Source of the DNA: a virus | Virus record (IMG/VR): IMGVR_UViG_3300037827_000653 | Coordinates: 1-34,876 of that record | DNA length: 34,876 bases | Strand: one strand, 5' to 3' | Shown: positions 12,500-27,733 of the stretch, piece after piece | Layout of the letters: each line of letters begins with the position of its first letter | How positions within the stretch are numbered: the first letter of the stretch is position 1 | Program-made: the position numbers and the translations under genes | The notes under the pieces: model-generated | Database searches by the model: none | Told to the model about the DNA's origin: nothing | Seen by the model: the letters and a program-made list of their open reading frames with translations, nothing else

Positions 12500-12528
12500 A
12501 TATAATATTAGTTTTAGAAACCAGTCAA
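12500..12528 (-). promoter_or_regulatory. Probable capsid-gene promoter
   Basis: On the minus strand TTGACT (12528-12523) is followed after 17 bases by TTATAT (12505-12500); an overlapping TATATA gives 18-base spacing. Transcription would begin near 12493. The site lies about 30 bases from the divergent cassette promoter on the other strand, so one short region fires both ways. The -10 is imperfect. Confidence 0.45.
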
Positions 12529-12556
12529 TGTTTATATTTGCGATATAATTTTAGTC

Positions 12557-12585
12557 TTGACACCTCCGTCTTCAAGTGTTACAAT
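12557..12585 (+). promoter_or_regulatory. Near-consensus sigma-70 promoter of the plus-strand cassette
   Basis: TTGACA (12557-12562), a 17-base spacer and TACAAT (12580-12585) match the sigma-70 consensus at 11 of 12 positions. It points away from the capsid gene into the ParD-like gene, whose ATG is at 12611. The upstream frame extension past that ATG runs through the promoter and is not coding. Confidence 0.85.
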
Positions 12586-12610: not shown

Positions 12611-12811
12611 ATGGCACACTCTGTCACAATATCTGATAAGTTTTATGAAGAGGCCAAAAGATACGCTACACTCGAATTACGTTCTGTACCTATGCAGCTT
12701 ATGCACTGGGCTAAAATAGCTATTGCTGTTGATGAAAAGCATAAGATCAAATCTCATCAAGACCTACTTGATGTCTTAGAAAAAATGGAAGATATATATC
12801 AAAATGGGTAA
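12611..12811 (+). CDS. ParD-like protein (66 aa)
   Basis: The first gene of the reversed cassette begins MAHSVTISDKFYEEAKRYA. This is the ParD-like (PF11903-type) pattern: a short beta strand (SVTISD) followed by two helices (EEAKRYATLEL, MQLMHWAKIAI), a small ribbon-helix-helix-like fold. GGAG (12600-12603) lies 7 bases before the ATG. No ParE/RelE-type toxin follows; instead two DUF1640-like membrane proteins do. It may regulate the cassette promoter. The family is clear; the partner and function are not. Confidence 0.75.
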   Translation: MAHSVTISDKFYEEAKRYATLELRSVPMQLMHWAKIAIAVDEKHKIKSHQDLLDVLEKMEDIYQNG

Positions 12812-22333: not shown

Positions 22334-22702
22334 TCAATGCTCCGACAGTGAATCTAATAGTTTAAAATTAAATTTATAAGAATTCAATCTTCCATTACCT
22401 TTACGGGTAACATAAATAAACCTTCTCGCCTTAAGGACACTTAAATATCTACTAATAGATTTACTACTACGATAAAATCGTGGGTTCATTTTATGAAAAG
22501 GAAGTGGAAAACTTACATTACCTTCGCTATCGCATTCAAAAGATAATAGATATTGAAAAAAATCACAGCACGAATTAGTAATCACAAAGACCTTTTCTCC
22601 TTTAGGAAATCTATTAAAACCACATTCCAATAAACCTCTGTCTGCATAAAACATTTTCTGAAATAATACGAATAATCTTTCTTTTAAATACTCATTTGTC
22701 AT
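22334..22702 (-). CDS. Winged-helix-like hypothetical protein (122 aa)
   Basis: The ATG overlaps the TGA of the ProQ-like gene (ATGA), so the two are coupled. The C-terminal half has RSSKSISRYLSVLKARRFIY followed by VTRKGNGRLNSYKFNF, which looks like a recognition helix and a beta wing. The N-terminal half is helical and aromatic (LKERLFVLFQKMFYADRG). It could be a DNA-binding regulator of early genes. No family is recognised. Confidence 0.6.
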   Translation of the reverse strand: MTNEYLKERLFVLFQKMFYADRGLLECGFNRFPKGEKVFVITNSCCDFFQYLLSFECDSEGNVSFPLPFHKMNPRFYRSSKSISRYLSVLKARRFIYVTRKGNGRLNSYKFNFKLLDSLSEH

Positions 22703-23163
22703 TTTATTTTATCTCCTCTTCTTAATTTCTCTTCTGCTTTCGTCTTAGCTTTTAAATTTCTTTTTATATTTCCTTTTGTGATAGCAAGATTATCCAAATG
22801 TTTTTGTGTTACCAAACCTACAAAATTACCTTTAAGGTCCACCCTTTTAGCATTTAAGACATGAATCTTATTATAAGAAGGTGTATTACAATATTTCATA
22901 AGAAATAAACCAATCTTTCTATGACTCATATCATAGTGCTTTGCTAAATCTACTCTAATTCCCACCTTCAAAGGCTTGGGATGTTCTATAGAAAAACACA
23001 AAGGAAATTCATGTACCACCTTCTTTAAGAACTCAACGTAATCCTCCGAAGATATTTTAGAAGTTAGTTTTTTTACAAGATTTACTACTGGTGGCTTAGG
23101 TTTATTAAACATGCCTATTGTAGAGCGTCTTAATATTGTTGGCTTGACGATATTGGGTTGCAT
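22699..23163 (-). CDS. ProQ/FinO-domain RNA-binding protein (154 aa)
   Basis: Residues about 40-125 match the ProQ/FinO domain: VVHEFPLCFSIEHPKPLKVG with FPLCF and PLKVGI, then YDMSHRKIGLFLMKYCNTPS, a YNKI stretch, and RVDLKGNFVGLVTQKHLDNL. The tail (RNLKAKTKAEEKLRRGDK) is basic, as in family members that bind RNA hairpins and help small RNAs pair with targets. GAGGATAACAT precedes the ATG. It is the second gene of the leftward early operon. It may act on phage antisense RNA or on host small-RNA networks; that role is inferred. Confidence 0.85.
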   Translation of the reverse strand: MQPNIVKPTILRRSTIGMFNKPKPPVVNLVKKLTSKISSEDYVEFLKKVVHEFPLCFSIEHPKPLKVGIRVDLAKHYDMSHRKIGLFLMKYCNTPSYNKIHVLNAKRVDLKGNFVGLVTQKHLDNLAITKGNIKRNLKAKTKAEEKLRRGDKIK

Positions 23164-23258
23164 ATGTTATCCTCGCAAAGTTAATTGTTATTAAAAAAGT
23201 ATTATTAGACCTTTTAGTGTTGAAAATCACATTTTTTGATGCATATAGACATTGACTT

Positions 23259-23681
23259 TCAACGCTCTGATTCCTCAAATTGGGGCGTAATTTCTTCTTC
23301 AGAATCTTCTTTCTTTGGTATCTTACTAAATTGTCTCCCAGGTTTTCTATTTCTAGCGATTATATCTTCCAAAGGAGGCATTTTACTTAAGATATCCAAA
23401 AGATCTAGAGAAAGATGCCCATTCTCATGATGTTTAGCTTCTTCAAGAAGATATTTTCTTAAAAACCAATCAAGATAATTAGCTTTATTAAATGTAGAAT
23501 GTGCTGTAAGTAAATATATCACAGTTACTAATTCAGGTGTAACCCAAGCTTGCAAAGTCCGAAGTCCTCTACTATCACGTTTTCCAATTTCCCCTTTTAC
23601 ATAACGTATATGGCGGTCCCTTTTATAAACCTCGACAATTTTCAAAGGCGCACTTATATCTGATACTTCTTTTAATGACAT
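23259..23681 (-). CDS. Hypothetical early protein, first gene of leftward operon (140 aa)
   Basis: The first gene read from the leftward arm of the bidirectional promoter. The start of transcription would be about 30 bases before the ATG, and there is no clear Shine-Dalgarno site. The N-terminal half is basic (KRDRHIRYVKGEIGKRDSRG), then helical (AWVTPELVTVIYLLTAHSTF, then YLDWFLRKYLLEEAKHH), and the tail is acidic. A DNA-binding regulator is a reasonable guess for a first early gene beside a control site, but I recognise no domain. Confidence 0.65.
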   Translation of the reverse strand: MSLKEVSDISAPLKIVEVYKRDRHIRYVKGEIGKRDSRGLRTLQAWVTPELVTVIYLLTAHSTFNKANYLDWFLRKYLLEEAKHHENGHLSLDLLDILSKMPPLEDIIARNRKPGRQFSKIPKKEDSEEEITPQFEESER

Positions 23682-23695
23682 GTAAATAATAATAA

Positions 23696-23745
23696 TTGAC
23701 AGTTGTGTGTAAATCAGTTATAATGAAAATTAAGGTCAATGTCAA
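23696..23745. promoter_or_regulatory. Overlapping bidirectional early promoter
   Basis: On the plus strand TTGACA (23696-23701), 17 bases and TATAAT (23719-23724) are a perfect sigma-70 consensus. On the minus strand TTGACA (23745-23740), 17 bases and TATAAC (23722-23717) match at 11 of 12 positions. The two -10 elements share the palindrome TTATAA. RNA polymerase cannot occupy both at once. It drives the recombination genes rightward and the replication genes leftward. Confidence 0.85.
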
Positions 23746-23767
23746 CACTAAAATTTGAGGTAAAAAA

Positions 23768-23857
23768 ATGTGTGCTTTATTATGTGCCATTTTGAAGATT
23801 TACGGAACTATTATCATCGGCACTTTTATAATTATGTGTTTCGTGGAGGGTAATTAA
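23768..23857 (+). CDS. Tiny membrane peptide 1 (29 aa)
   Basis: The frame begins MCALLCAILKIYG and ends FVEGN. It is almost entirely hydrophobic and long enough for one membrane span. GAGG lies 8 bases before the ATG, and the start is about 37 bases after the predicted transcription start of the strong rightward promoter. The stop is 2 bases from the next peptide's start. Placement as the first early gene invites comparison with small toxic or regulatory peptides of lambdoid left operons, but there is no sequence match. Confidence 0.6.
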   Translation: MCALLCAILKIYGTIIIGTFIIMCFVEGN

Positions 23858-23859
23858 AA

Positions 23860-23934
23860 ATGTCCTATTTGTGGTTTAAATTATTCAGTGCATATATAAT
23901 ATATGTAATATGCTTTACAGACTATAGTAACTAA
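23860..23934 (+). CDS. Tiny membrane peptide 2 (24 aa)
   Basis: The frame reads MSYLWFKLFSAYIIYVICF plus a short polar tail, which fits one membrane span. The ribosome site GGAGGG lies 9 bases before the ATG, within the end of peptide 1. Its stop is 2 bases before the exonuclease ATG, which has no ribosome site of its own. It may therefore also serve to deliver ribosomes to the exonuclease gene. Function unknown. Confidence 0.55.
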   Translation: MSYLWFKLFSAYIIYVICFTDYSN

Positions 23935-23936
23935 TA

Positions 23937-24842
23937 ATGGCTTTAACAATTGAGCAACGTCGCGAACGTTGCAAATATATAGGCGGCTCTGATTGCGCTG
24001 CTATATTTAATATATCAAAATGGTCAACTCCTTTAGATATCTTTTTTGAAAAGATACAGGATGAAGTAGATGATGAAGATACAAGTAATGATGCTATGGA
24101 ATGGGGTAATAAACTAGAACCTCTGATCATTCAAACATTTCAAGAAAAAACAGGAAAAGAATGTAAGATAGATAATGAAACCTTGTTTCACCCTAAATAC
24201 AAATTCATAGCGGCTAATTTGGATGCAAGACTTATAAATGAAAATGCTATTTTGGAAGTAAAGACAGCTCGTTTCCCTGGAGATTGGGGAGATCTAGCAA
24301 GTGATCAAATTCCAGATCCTTATTTAATGCAAGTGGCTCATTATAGCGCTGTTATGAATTTGGATAAAGTATATATAGCAGTTCTTATCAGCGGCTCAGA
24401 TTTTAGGGTCTATGAATATAATAAGAATCCTAAGTTAGAAGATATAATTATACAAAGGGAAGTGGACTTCTGGAATAACCATGTGCTGCCAAAAATTCCG
24501 CCCACTCCTTCTAATGCACTTGATGCTTTAAAACTTTGGAAGCAAGCGATATCTGGAAGTATTATCACTGCAAATCCCGATATTGCTGATATTGTAAGTG
24601 AGATCAAAGCCTTAAAAAATCAAATCAAAACTTTGGAGAATCTTCAAAATGAGCATGTAACAGTATTAGCCTCTTTCCTTAAAGGAAGCGAAACGCTTAT
24701 TGATGAAAAAGATAGGGTGTTAGCTACTTGGAAAAGCCAAAATACCAATCGTTTTGATCTAACGAGATTTAAAGCTGAAAATGAAGAACTTTATAATAAA
24801 TATATTAAACAATCATCAACTAGAGTATGGAGAATAAAATAA
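23937..24842 (+). CDS. YqaJ-type recombination exonuclease (301 aa)
   Basis: This matches the YqaJ viral recombinase family of lambda-exonuclease-like nucleases. CKYIGGSDCAAIFNISKW at about 13-29 is followed by MEWGNKLEPLIIQTF with E61, then NLDARLI with D96 and ILEVKTA with E107 and K109. These give the PD-(D/E)XK active site. The C-terminal third is a helical coiled-coil-like region. It would resect one DNA strand to make 3' tails for RecT, which is encoded one gene downstream. Translation probably depends on the preceding small peptide. Confidence 0.9.
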   Translation: MALTIEQRRERCKYIGGSDCAAIFNISKWSTPLDIFFEKIQDEVDDEDTSNDAMEWGNKLEPLIIQTFQEKTGKECKIDNETLFHPKYKFIAANLDARLINENAILEVKTARFPGDWGDLASDQIPDPYLMQVAHYSAVMNLDKVYIAVLISGSDFRVYEYNKNPKLEDIIIQREVDFWNNHVLPKIPPTPSNALDALKLWKQAISGSIITANPDIADIVSEIKALKNQIKTLENLQNEHVTVLASFLKGSETLIDEKDRVLATWKSQNTNRFDLTRFKAENEELYNKYIKQSSTRVWRIK

Positions 24843-25267: not shown

Positions 25268-26077
25268 ATGAACCAAGTAACCGTACAATCTAAAAACAAA
25301 ATCATAGAATACTTAGAGAATCCTAAGTTTAAAGAACAACTCAAGACAGTTTTACCTAAGTATTTAACTCCTGAACGCATGGTAAGAATTGCTCTGACTG
25401 AACTTAGATCTATTCCAAAATTAATGGAATGCCATCCCTTATCATTTATAGGAGCTATCATAAGATGTGCACAAATGGGGTTAGAACCAAGTAGTGAATT
25501 GGGTCATGTTTATTTGATCCCCTTCTTTAATGGTAAAACCAAGCAACAAGAATGTAAGATCATGATAGGTTATAAAGGCATGCTTTATCTTGCTTCGAAA
25601 GCACATATTCATATGGAAACAGGAGTTATTTCCGCTAATGATAAATTTGAATGTGAAAAAGGTTTAGAACCAAAATTAAAACATATTCCTCATCTAGGTC
25701 CTAAATCTGATATGGTGGGAGTTTATGCTCTTGCAAGGTTTCAAGATCCAAGTATTCAGCCTATATTTGAGTTCATGAATAAACATGAGATCGATGATAT
25801 AATGGTGAGAGCCGTGCAAGGCAAATCATCTACGCCTTGGCAAACTGATTATGAAGCTATGGCTCGTAAAACAATAATAAGAAGATTATTTAAATATTTG
25901 CCGATGAGTGAAGAAATAGAATATGCGGTGGCGACCGATGAGCAAGCAGATAAAGGAACACAAAACCATGCTAGTTTAATTGATGATACTTTACTTGACG
26001 AATCTATTGAATCAACCTCTAATAAAGCTGAAATATTAGCAACAATGTTAGAGAAAGAAAATGGATCAAATAATTGA
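25268..26077 (+). CDS. recT: RecT single-strand annealing protein (269 aa)
   Basis: The pattern is RecT. The N-terminus is helical (LPKYLTPERMVRIALTELR), followed by HPLSFIGAIIRCAQMGLEPS, then LGHVYLIPFFNGKTKQQECK and IMIGYKGMLYLASKA. Further on are GVYALARF and WQTDYEAMARKTIIRRLFKY before an acidic C-terminus. GGAGAG lies 7 bases before the ATG. With the YqaJ exonuclease it forms a two-component homologous recombination system acting on double-strand ends, for phage replication or repair. Such a pair would also act on the long repeats in the fibre genes. Confidence 0.95.
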   Translation: MNQVTVQSKNKIIEYLENPKFKEQLKTVLPKYLTPERMVRIALTELRSIPKLMECHPLSFIGAIIRCAQMGLEPSSELGHVYLIPFFNGKTKQQECKIMIGYKGMLYLASKAHIHMETGVISANDKFECEKGLEPKLKHIPHLGPKSDMVGVYALARFQDPSIQPIFEFMNKHEIDDIMVRAVQGKSSTPWQTDYEAMARKTIIRRLFKYLPMSEEIEYAVATDEQADKGTQNHASLIDDTLLDESIESTSNKAEILATMLEKENGSNN

Positions 26078-27205: not shown

Positions 27206-27733
27206 ATGGCATATCAGTTTAGAAGACAACCTTTGTTGGCAGAAGAAGTAATCAAATTAAATAATGCCTGTGATACTTTTGAAGAAAAGTTAATCATATG
27301 GACCTTATTAGATACAGGACTGCGAATAGGTGAGCTTGCCGCACTAACTAAGAATAACATTCTGTGGCAAGAAAAGGCAATAAGAATTGATGGAAAGGGC
27401 GGCCCTTACGGTAAAATGACGAAGAAAAGACTTATTCCGATGTCTGATAGGGTATTAGCTTTGATGACTAATTATTTTACCCAGCATAACAAATGGTTTT
27501 TACAAAAGCGACAAATGCAATTGAAAGTACGACAAATTGCCAATAAAGCCCAGATAATTAGTCCTGTAAGTCCTCACGTATTAAGACATACTTTTGCTTG
27601 CACAGCTATTCAAAAGGGTATATCACTGGCTGCATTAAAAAAGATAATGGGTCATGATAGTATAACTACTACAGAAATTTATCTGAATCTTAATGATCCG
27701 CACCTAATAGATGAGTTTAGAAATAAATGGTAA
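27206..27733 (+). CDS. Catalytic-domain-only tyrosine recombinase (175 aa)
   Basis: All catalytic residues are present: R40 in TGLRIGEL, a Lys-rich strand region (GKGGPYGKMTKKRLIP), H124 and R127 in SPHVLRHTF, H150 in MGHDS, and the nucleophile Y159 in TTTEIYLNL. The usual N-terminal core-binding domain (about 80-100 aa) is missing. The length resembles FimB/FimE-type recombinases rather than a full phage integrase (over 300 aa). The start at ATG 27206 has GAGAGG 5-8 bases upstream and a promoter just before. It may integrate the phage or drive another site-specific rearrangement. Confidence 0.85.
   Translation: MAYQFRRQPLLAEEVIKLNNACDTFEEKLIIWTLLDTGLRIGELAALTKNNILWQEKAIRIDGKGGPYGKMTKKRLIPMSDRVLALMTNYFTQHNKWFLQKRQMQLKVRQIANKAQIISPVSPHVLRHTFACTAIQKGISLAALKKIMGHDSITTTEIYLNLNDPHLIDEFRNKW

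Follow-up and report, generated by a model that had tools for sequence, protein, structure and literature searches.

Gene context of the divergent region

The window analyzed here (the whole stretch of 34,876 nucleotides; its source record, IMGVR_UViG_3300037827_000653, is a linear viral contig) contains two sets of genes that diverge from an 86-bp gap. The genes closest to this gap are the following:

22699–23163, minus strand: ProQ/FinO-domain protein (Pfam ProQ, 5.6e-18), the next leftward gene after p140
23259–23681, minus strand: p140, a candidate ribbon-helix-helix (RHH) regulator of 140 aa and the first leftward gene
23768–23857, plus strand: hydrophobic ORF of 29 aa (MCALLCAILKIYGTIIIGTFIIMCFVEGN, MCALL...), the first rightward gene, with a GAGG Shine-Dalgarno sequence
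23937–24842, plus strand: YqaJ/RecE-type exonuclease (Pfam YqaJ, 3.1e-28; PHROG 434, 1.1e-81)
25268–26077, plus strand: RecT-type annealing protein (Pfam RecT, 1.7e-33)

On the rightward strand, a second small hydrophobic ORF is found at 23860, and the gene between the exonuclease and RecT encodes a 142-aa protein that matched no family. The left unit runs in the order p140, ProQ/FinO-domain protein, a 122-aa protein (no family match above the cut-off), a dATP/dGTP-diphosphohydrolase-like fragment, and a 446-aa protein (no family match). A preliminary description of this locus had set recombination genes against replication genes; the right-hand side agrees with this, encoding a YqaJ/RecE-like exonuclease and RecT, whereas nothing marks the left unit as a replication operon. 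In one related contig (L005), a 32-aa ORF (MCSFL...) occupies the position equivalent to that of the 29-aa ORF. The best annotated relative of the exonuclease (40% identity) belongs to a phage of Megaira, a Rickettsiales symbiont, and gives no more than a hint of the host. No DNA similarity to annotated phages was found, and a terminase search of genome contigs returned relatives that were only 26 to 46% identical.

The start of p140 is not preceded by a Shine-Dalgarno sequence. The protein gave no family match at threshold, none of the RHH family profiles matched it significantly, and a single-sequence search of viral contigs and annotated phages returned no homolog. Its homologs in contigs L007, L005, and L029 could be aligned with it over a 67-column core without gaps, and sub-threshold RHH matches were obtained for two of them (Antitox_RHH at 0.029 for L029 and FitA-like_RHH at 0.15 for L005). 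A p140-family profile searched against PDB sequences gave a likewise sub-threshold match to 2k6l, an RHH protein, at E = 0.31. Two low-confidence models show strand-helix-helix order, one of them (pLDDT ∼50–73) with a strand at residues 42–45 and helices at 49–60 and 66–84. A Foldseek search of the PDB with a low-confidence model gave no useful match, and PDB matches to designed helical repeats were judged to be artefacts of helical composition and set aside. Together, these sequence and model data are no more than suggestive of p140 being an RHH protein. A confirmed protein of this type is encoded elsewhere in the window:

12611–12811, plus strand: ParD-like RHH antitoxin-type protein (Pfam ParD_like, 7.4e-8, 32.7 bits against a cut-off of 23)

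Facing promoter-like sequences at 23696–23745

Read directly from the sequence, 23696–23745 holds two facing σ70-type promoter-like sequences, as the preliminary description had reported, and a third candidate lies closer to p140:

23696–23724, plus strand: rightward promoter TTGACA-17-TATAAT, 12/12 (−35 at 23696–23701, −10 at 23719–23724, predicted start ∼23731)
23717–23745, minus strand: leftward promoter-like sequence TTGACA-17-TATAAC, 11/12 (−35 at 23745–23740, −10 at 23722–23717, predicted start ∼23710)
23686–23713, minus strand: alternative leftward promoter TTTACA-16-TATTAT, 10/12, with T at −7 (predicted start at the p140 ATG, 23681–23679)

The rightward sequence is the sole 12/12 match in the whole window to the σ70 consensus, which is assumed to apply in the host, and on this match the promoter is judged to be intrinsically strong. 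The single mismatch of the leftward −10 is a C at −7. A T at −7 is one of the two most constrained positions of the −10 element, and the TATAAC site was absent from a promoter scan that requires it. Because of this C, the leftward arm is probably weaker than its 11/12 count implies and weaker than the rightward arm; the earlier claim of two near-perfect opposed promoters is thus borne out by the match counts (12/12 and 11/12) but overstates the strength of the leftward one. The two elements had also been said to overlap fully on TTATAA, whereas the −10 hexamers have just 4 bp (23719–23722) in common and TTATAA (23718–23723) is the palindromic core only. Outside the hexamers the two spacers, counted by eye, agree at only ∼5 of 17 positions, and symmetry is therefore limited to the promoter elements.

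Published bidirectional promoters have starts 7 to 25 bp apart and exclude simultaneous binding of polymerase (PMC12825309, PMC10268837). The predicted starts here are 21 bp apart (23724 + 7 = 23731; 23717 − 7 = 23710), within this range for a bidirectional (shared −10) promoter, and assignment of 23696–23745 to the class would be by geometry only. The pairing of A at −11 with T at −7, a usual mark of a strong −10 that published definitions do not demand of this class, is present in the rightward TATAAT and absent from the leftward element. The likeness to the −10-symmetry promoters of Warman, Grainger, and colleagues (PMC12825309, PMC10268837) lies in opposite-strand σ70 promoters with overlapping −10s and in the 21-bp separation, which is not among the listed common spacings of 18, 10, and 23. 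Both predicted −35s of the phage pair are perfect, whereas the five E. coli bidirectional promoters that were tested had basal activity too weak for competition (PMC12825309). The arrangement had been called striking, a view that is tempered by the 19% of E. coli RNAs that arise by divergent transcription from shared −10 elements (PMC12825309) and by the overlapping switch characterized in plasmid pLS20 (PMC4207663). The best reading is that the site belongs to an already known class, as an overlapping divergent switch of the ordinary kind.

It is possible, if doubtful, that only the rightward promoter is real, with the leftward TTGACA falling within an operator word (TTTTAGTGTTGACA) and p140 being transcribed from TTTACA-16-TATTAT, possibly without a leader; the symmetry would then be partly coincidental. 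The leftward TATAAC, lacking T at −7 and missed by the scan requiring it, is compatible with this, as are the lack of a Shine-Dalgarno sequence before p140 and a TATTAT box that ends 5 nt before the ATG, from which a transcript would be leaderless. However, the alternative site scores 10/12 only, a match common in the AT-rich DNA here, and taken alone it is weak.

A fortuitous match of AT-rich intergenic DNA to both hexamers appears very improbable. In a first-order Markov simulation, 0.047 sites of 12/12 and 2.2 sites of at least 11/12 were expected per window on both strands, and facing pairs of at least 11/12 each with starts 0 to 25 bp apart were expected at 1.3e-5 per 86-bp gap, a rough figure that derives from only 3 such pairs in 20 Mb simulated. 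Four of the six window sites of at least 11/12 sit 30 to 100 nt before the start of a gene that reads in the matching direction (binomial P = 7.6e-5, with the gene list being our own reading of the ORF table), and these are the four with a perfect TTGACA, namely 12557 (ParD-like gene), 23696, 23745, and 27152 (integrase). Chance would be in keeping with the weaker promoter-like sites, which are not commoner in the region than in shuffles (47 versus 51.1), and with the viral contigs, where the geometry is not enriched: TTGACA-17-TATAAT-N15-TGTCAA occurs in 23 stretches, and in a scan of gaps from 3 to 33, 4 of 119 among the matches listed had a gap of 15, against a mean of 3.8. This flat distribution, without an excess at 15, argues that the geometry is not generally selected and is not a widespread phage design.

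The short integrase (27206–27733, ∼175 aa, Phage_integrase 4e-29) has a TTGACA-17-TATCAT promoter with TG before the −10. The earlier designation of the site as the master early switch of the phage is not supported; the integrase (27206) and the ParD-like gene (12611) are each preceded by a separate promoter.

Recurrence in related viral contigs

Exonuclease and terminase searches identified a p140 homolog divergent from an exonuclease operon in three viral contigs, L029, L005 (= L033), and L007 (= L032); RecT and second exonuclease scans revealed no p140 relatives beyond these. In the L029 gap, TTGACA-17-TATATT (5184) faces TTGACA-16-TATTAT (5246), both 11/12, with starts ∼7 bp apart. The leftward TATTAT carries T at −7, so that here a promoter free of the −7 defect faces the rightward one, which speaks against a single rightward promoter, and L029 gives a second case against chance. 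In the L033 gap, TTGACA-17-TATCAT (5838, 11/12) faces TTGACT-17-TAGTAT (5885, 9/12), with starts 23 bp apart, one of the common spacings of −10-symmetry bidirectional promoters (PMC12825309, PMC10268837); if TTGACT-17-TAGTAT were used, the regulator would begin at an internal ATG. The L007 gap contains no promoter of at least 9/12 even though the regulator gene is present, and this counts against a bidirectional reading together with the leftward −7 C and the p140 start described above.

The rightward promoter thus recurs in two of three relatives, with a good facing pair in one (L029) and a weak pair in another (L033). Both gaps lie between the exonuclease operon and the p140 homolog, and the exonucleases are just 46 to 48% identical. 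The preliminary description stands in its core, that of opposed promoter-like sequences whose polymerase footprints would overlap, with divergent genes on either side. The spacing between −35 boxes varies (38, 51, and 36 bp), which is easier to reconcile with promoters placed independently of each other than with a fixed palindromic operator.

The L029 regulator gene is followed directly by a 16-bp inverted repeat that is flanked by A/T. The repeat was not listed by the terminator scan but looks like an intrinsic terminator, in which case the left promoter of L029 may serve the regulator alone. In L005, a tRNA-like gene (2455–2531; anticodon reported as two bases) adjoins the regulator gene. 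A different conserved protein of 78 to 81 aa is encoded immediately upstream of the exonuclease, on the same strand, in L004 (1149–1385), L030 (4295–4540), and L031 (2553–2798); the p140-family profile gave no significant match to these small proteins.

Shared sequence words and a proposed switch

Short words in and beside the promoter pair recur at two other places in the window:

23740–23753, minus strand: candidate operator word TTTTAGTGTTGA, which runs into the leftward −35 (TTTTAGTGTTGACA)
23732–23743, plus strand: candidate operator word AAGGTCAATGTC, at the start of the rightward leader
23205–23285, minus strand: region before the ProQ gene, in which four words of the divergent promoter region are found in a changed order
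12523–12585, plus strand: third place with both main words, at the TTGACA-17-TACAAT promoter (12557) of the ParD-like gene (AGTCAATGTTTATAT, 14/15; TTTTAGTCTTGA, 11/12)

Between them, TTTTAGTGTTGA and GTCAATGTC reach into the leftward −35 and the leader of the rightward transcript, and they are found again in front of the ProQ gene and beside the ParD-like promoter; the words shared with the pre-ProQ region are these two, AAAAAATGTG, and AATTTGAGG. Positions 23730–23775 have 12 8-mers in common with the pre-ProQ region, compared with 0.30 for shuffled sequence (none of 5000 shuffles attained 12), both regions having been picked after a repeat was seen. A window-wide rank, which tests the first region against every other place, also gives the pre-ProQ region as its best match, the next non-overlapping place sharing 5 8-mers. 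The differing word order makes a simple duplication unlikely. The exact 12-mer TTTTAGTGTTGA is found again at 23212–23223 (plus strand) and, with one mismatch, at 12549–12560, where it is aligned with a −35 in the same way, while AAGGTCAATGTC has an 11/12 inverted match at 23248–23259 and a relative, AGTCAATGTTTATAT, at 12523–12537. At 12523–12560, TTTTAGTCTTGACA again ends in the promoter −35. An exact copy of TTTTAGTGTTGA within the portal gene (15838) is probably due to chance. A search for the shared words in L029, L005, and L007 found nothing convincing; one match in L007 was dismissed as a T-rich run. The gap before the ProQ gene (23205–23285) also contains an inverted repeat, GTTGAAAATCA / TGACTTTCAAC, that could form an RNA stem. 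As the words cover part of the leftward −35 and of the rightward leader and recur at two other upstream regions, the preliminary description was probably wrong in allowing no space for a normal operator.

Two of these copies bear on whether the leftward TTGACA is solely part of an operator. At 23212, TTTTAGTGTTGA is followed by AA and not CA and a near-consensus promoter is absent, which would favor transcription from the rightward promoter only; the last bases of the word at 12549 belong to the −35 of an 11/12 promoter, which would not. Alternatively, the words could act in RNA, with the leaders of the exonuclease operon and the ProQ gene being bound by the phage ProQ/FinO-domain protein. In both leaders the words do have the sense orientation of the predicted transcript, and a GTTGAAAGTCA...TGATTTTCAAC stem can form in the ProQ gap. 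However, the third copy (12523–12560) is upstream of the start of its promoter, hence outside that RNA, and is better explained by DNA binding; the folding of the rightward leader is weak (−5.6 kcal/mol), and there was no Rfam match. We consider an RNA site improbable.

On balance, we favor as probable an overlapping divergent σ70 promoter that sets p140 against the recombination operon, controlled by polymerase exclusion and by a regulator acting on the shared words. We infer transcription, competition, and the identity and binding of the regulator as follows. RNA polymerase would occupy the site in one orientation at a time, as is established for the class. On entry, rightward transcription would dominate, and the regulator would build up from the weak leftward promoter. 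Either p140 or the ParD-like protein, an equally good candidate for binding the shared words, would then bind TTTTAGTGTTGA / GTCAATGTC at the leftward −35 and just past the rightward start, adjusting output both ways; most likely this would be an autoregulated repressor on the words that overlap the weak arm. The same words before the ProQ and ParD-like genes would make this a three-site regulon, and the right operon under its control would be one for early recombination (small membrane ORFs, exonuclease, and RecT). A wider proposal, that this phage family uses a near-consensus symmetric-promoter exclusion switch between an RHH regulator and a RecE/RecT operon, with the words tying ProQ-type and ParD-like genes into a three-site early regulon, is tentative and rather unlikely. 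On that view both arms, in contrast to the weak E. coli examples, might have enough strength to compete at basal level.

A close functional parallel is pLS20, in which Pc and Pr overlap divergently as a switch, one arm being strong and the other weak, with the regulator RcoLS20 and a second operator (PMC4207663). In both systems a strong operon promoter overlaps a weaker divergent one for a regulator (here a candidate), and exclusion with autoregulation is proposed for the phage site. pLS20 differs in being a conjugative plasmid for which looping and activation were demonstrated, whereas the leftward weakness of the phage site is read from sequence. The PRM/PR pair of phage lambda likewise drives a regulator gene and the early genes in opposite directions, but the two lambda promoters are adjacent, with a tripartite CI/Cro operator; here the promoters overlap, and no CI-type helix-turn-helix gene was recognized among the proteins examined. 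In phage P22, the immI promoters overlap and Mnt and Arc are both RHH proteins. Mnt represses arc and ant, and Arc represses mnt (PMC11016777). The likeness is that of phage repressors acting on divergent transcription; the difference is that immI controls an antirepressor and not an exonuclease-RecT operon, and the RHH fold of p140 is only a candidate. As a natural pair with two perfect −35s, one perfect −10, and one −10 with a single-base defect, the site would offer a test case for competition becoming regulation, in the recombination operon of an uncharacterized phage group.

The pattern search also returned sites elsewhere. In L193, an unrelated contig, 2041–2090 is a nearly perfect 50-bp palindrome (TTGACACTTGACTATAGG..ATTATAAT..CCTATAGTCAAGTGTCAA) with two 12/12 promoters, flanked by a leftward gene that by its sequence resembles an XRE-type repressor and by a rightward 66-aa ORF. 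The two-way pattern was present on both strands in L199 (7015–7064), L205 (4145–4194), L207 (6253–6302), and L198 (3542–3591), where the sites adjoin related genes for a protein of 202 to 203 aa.
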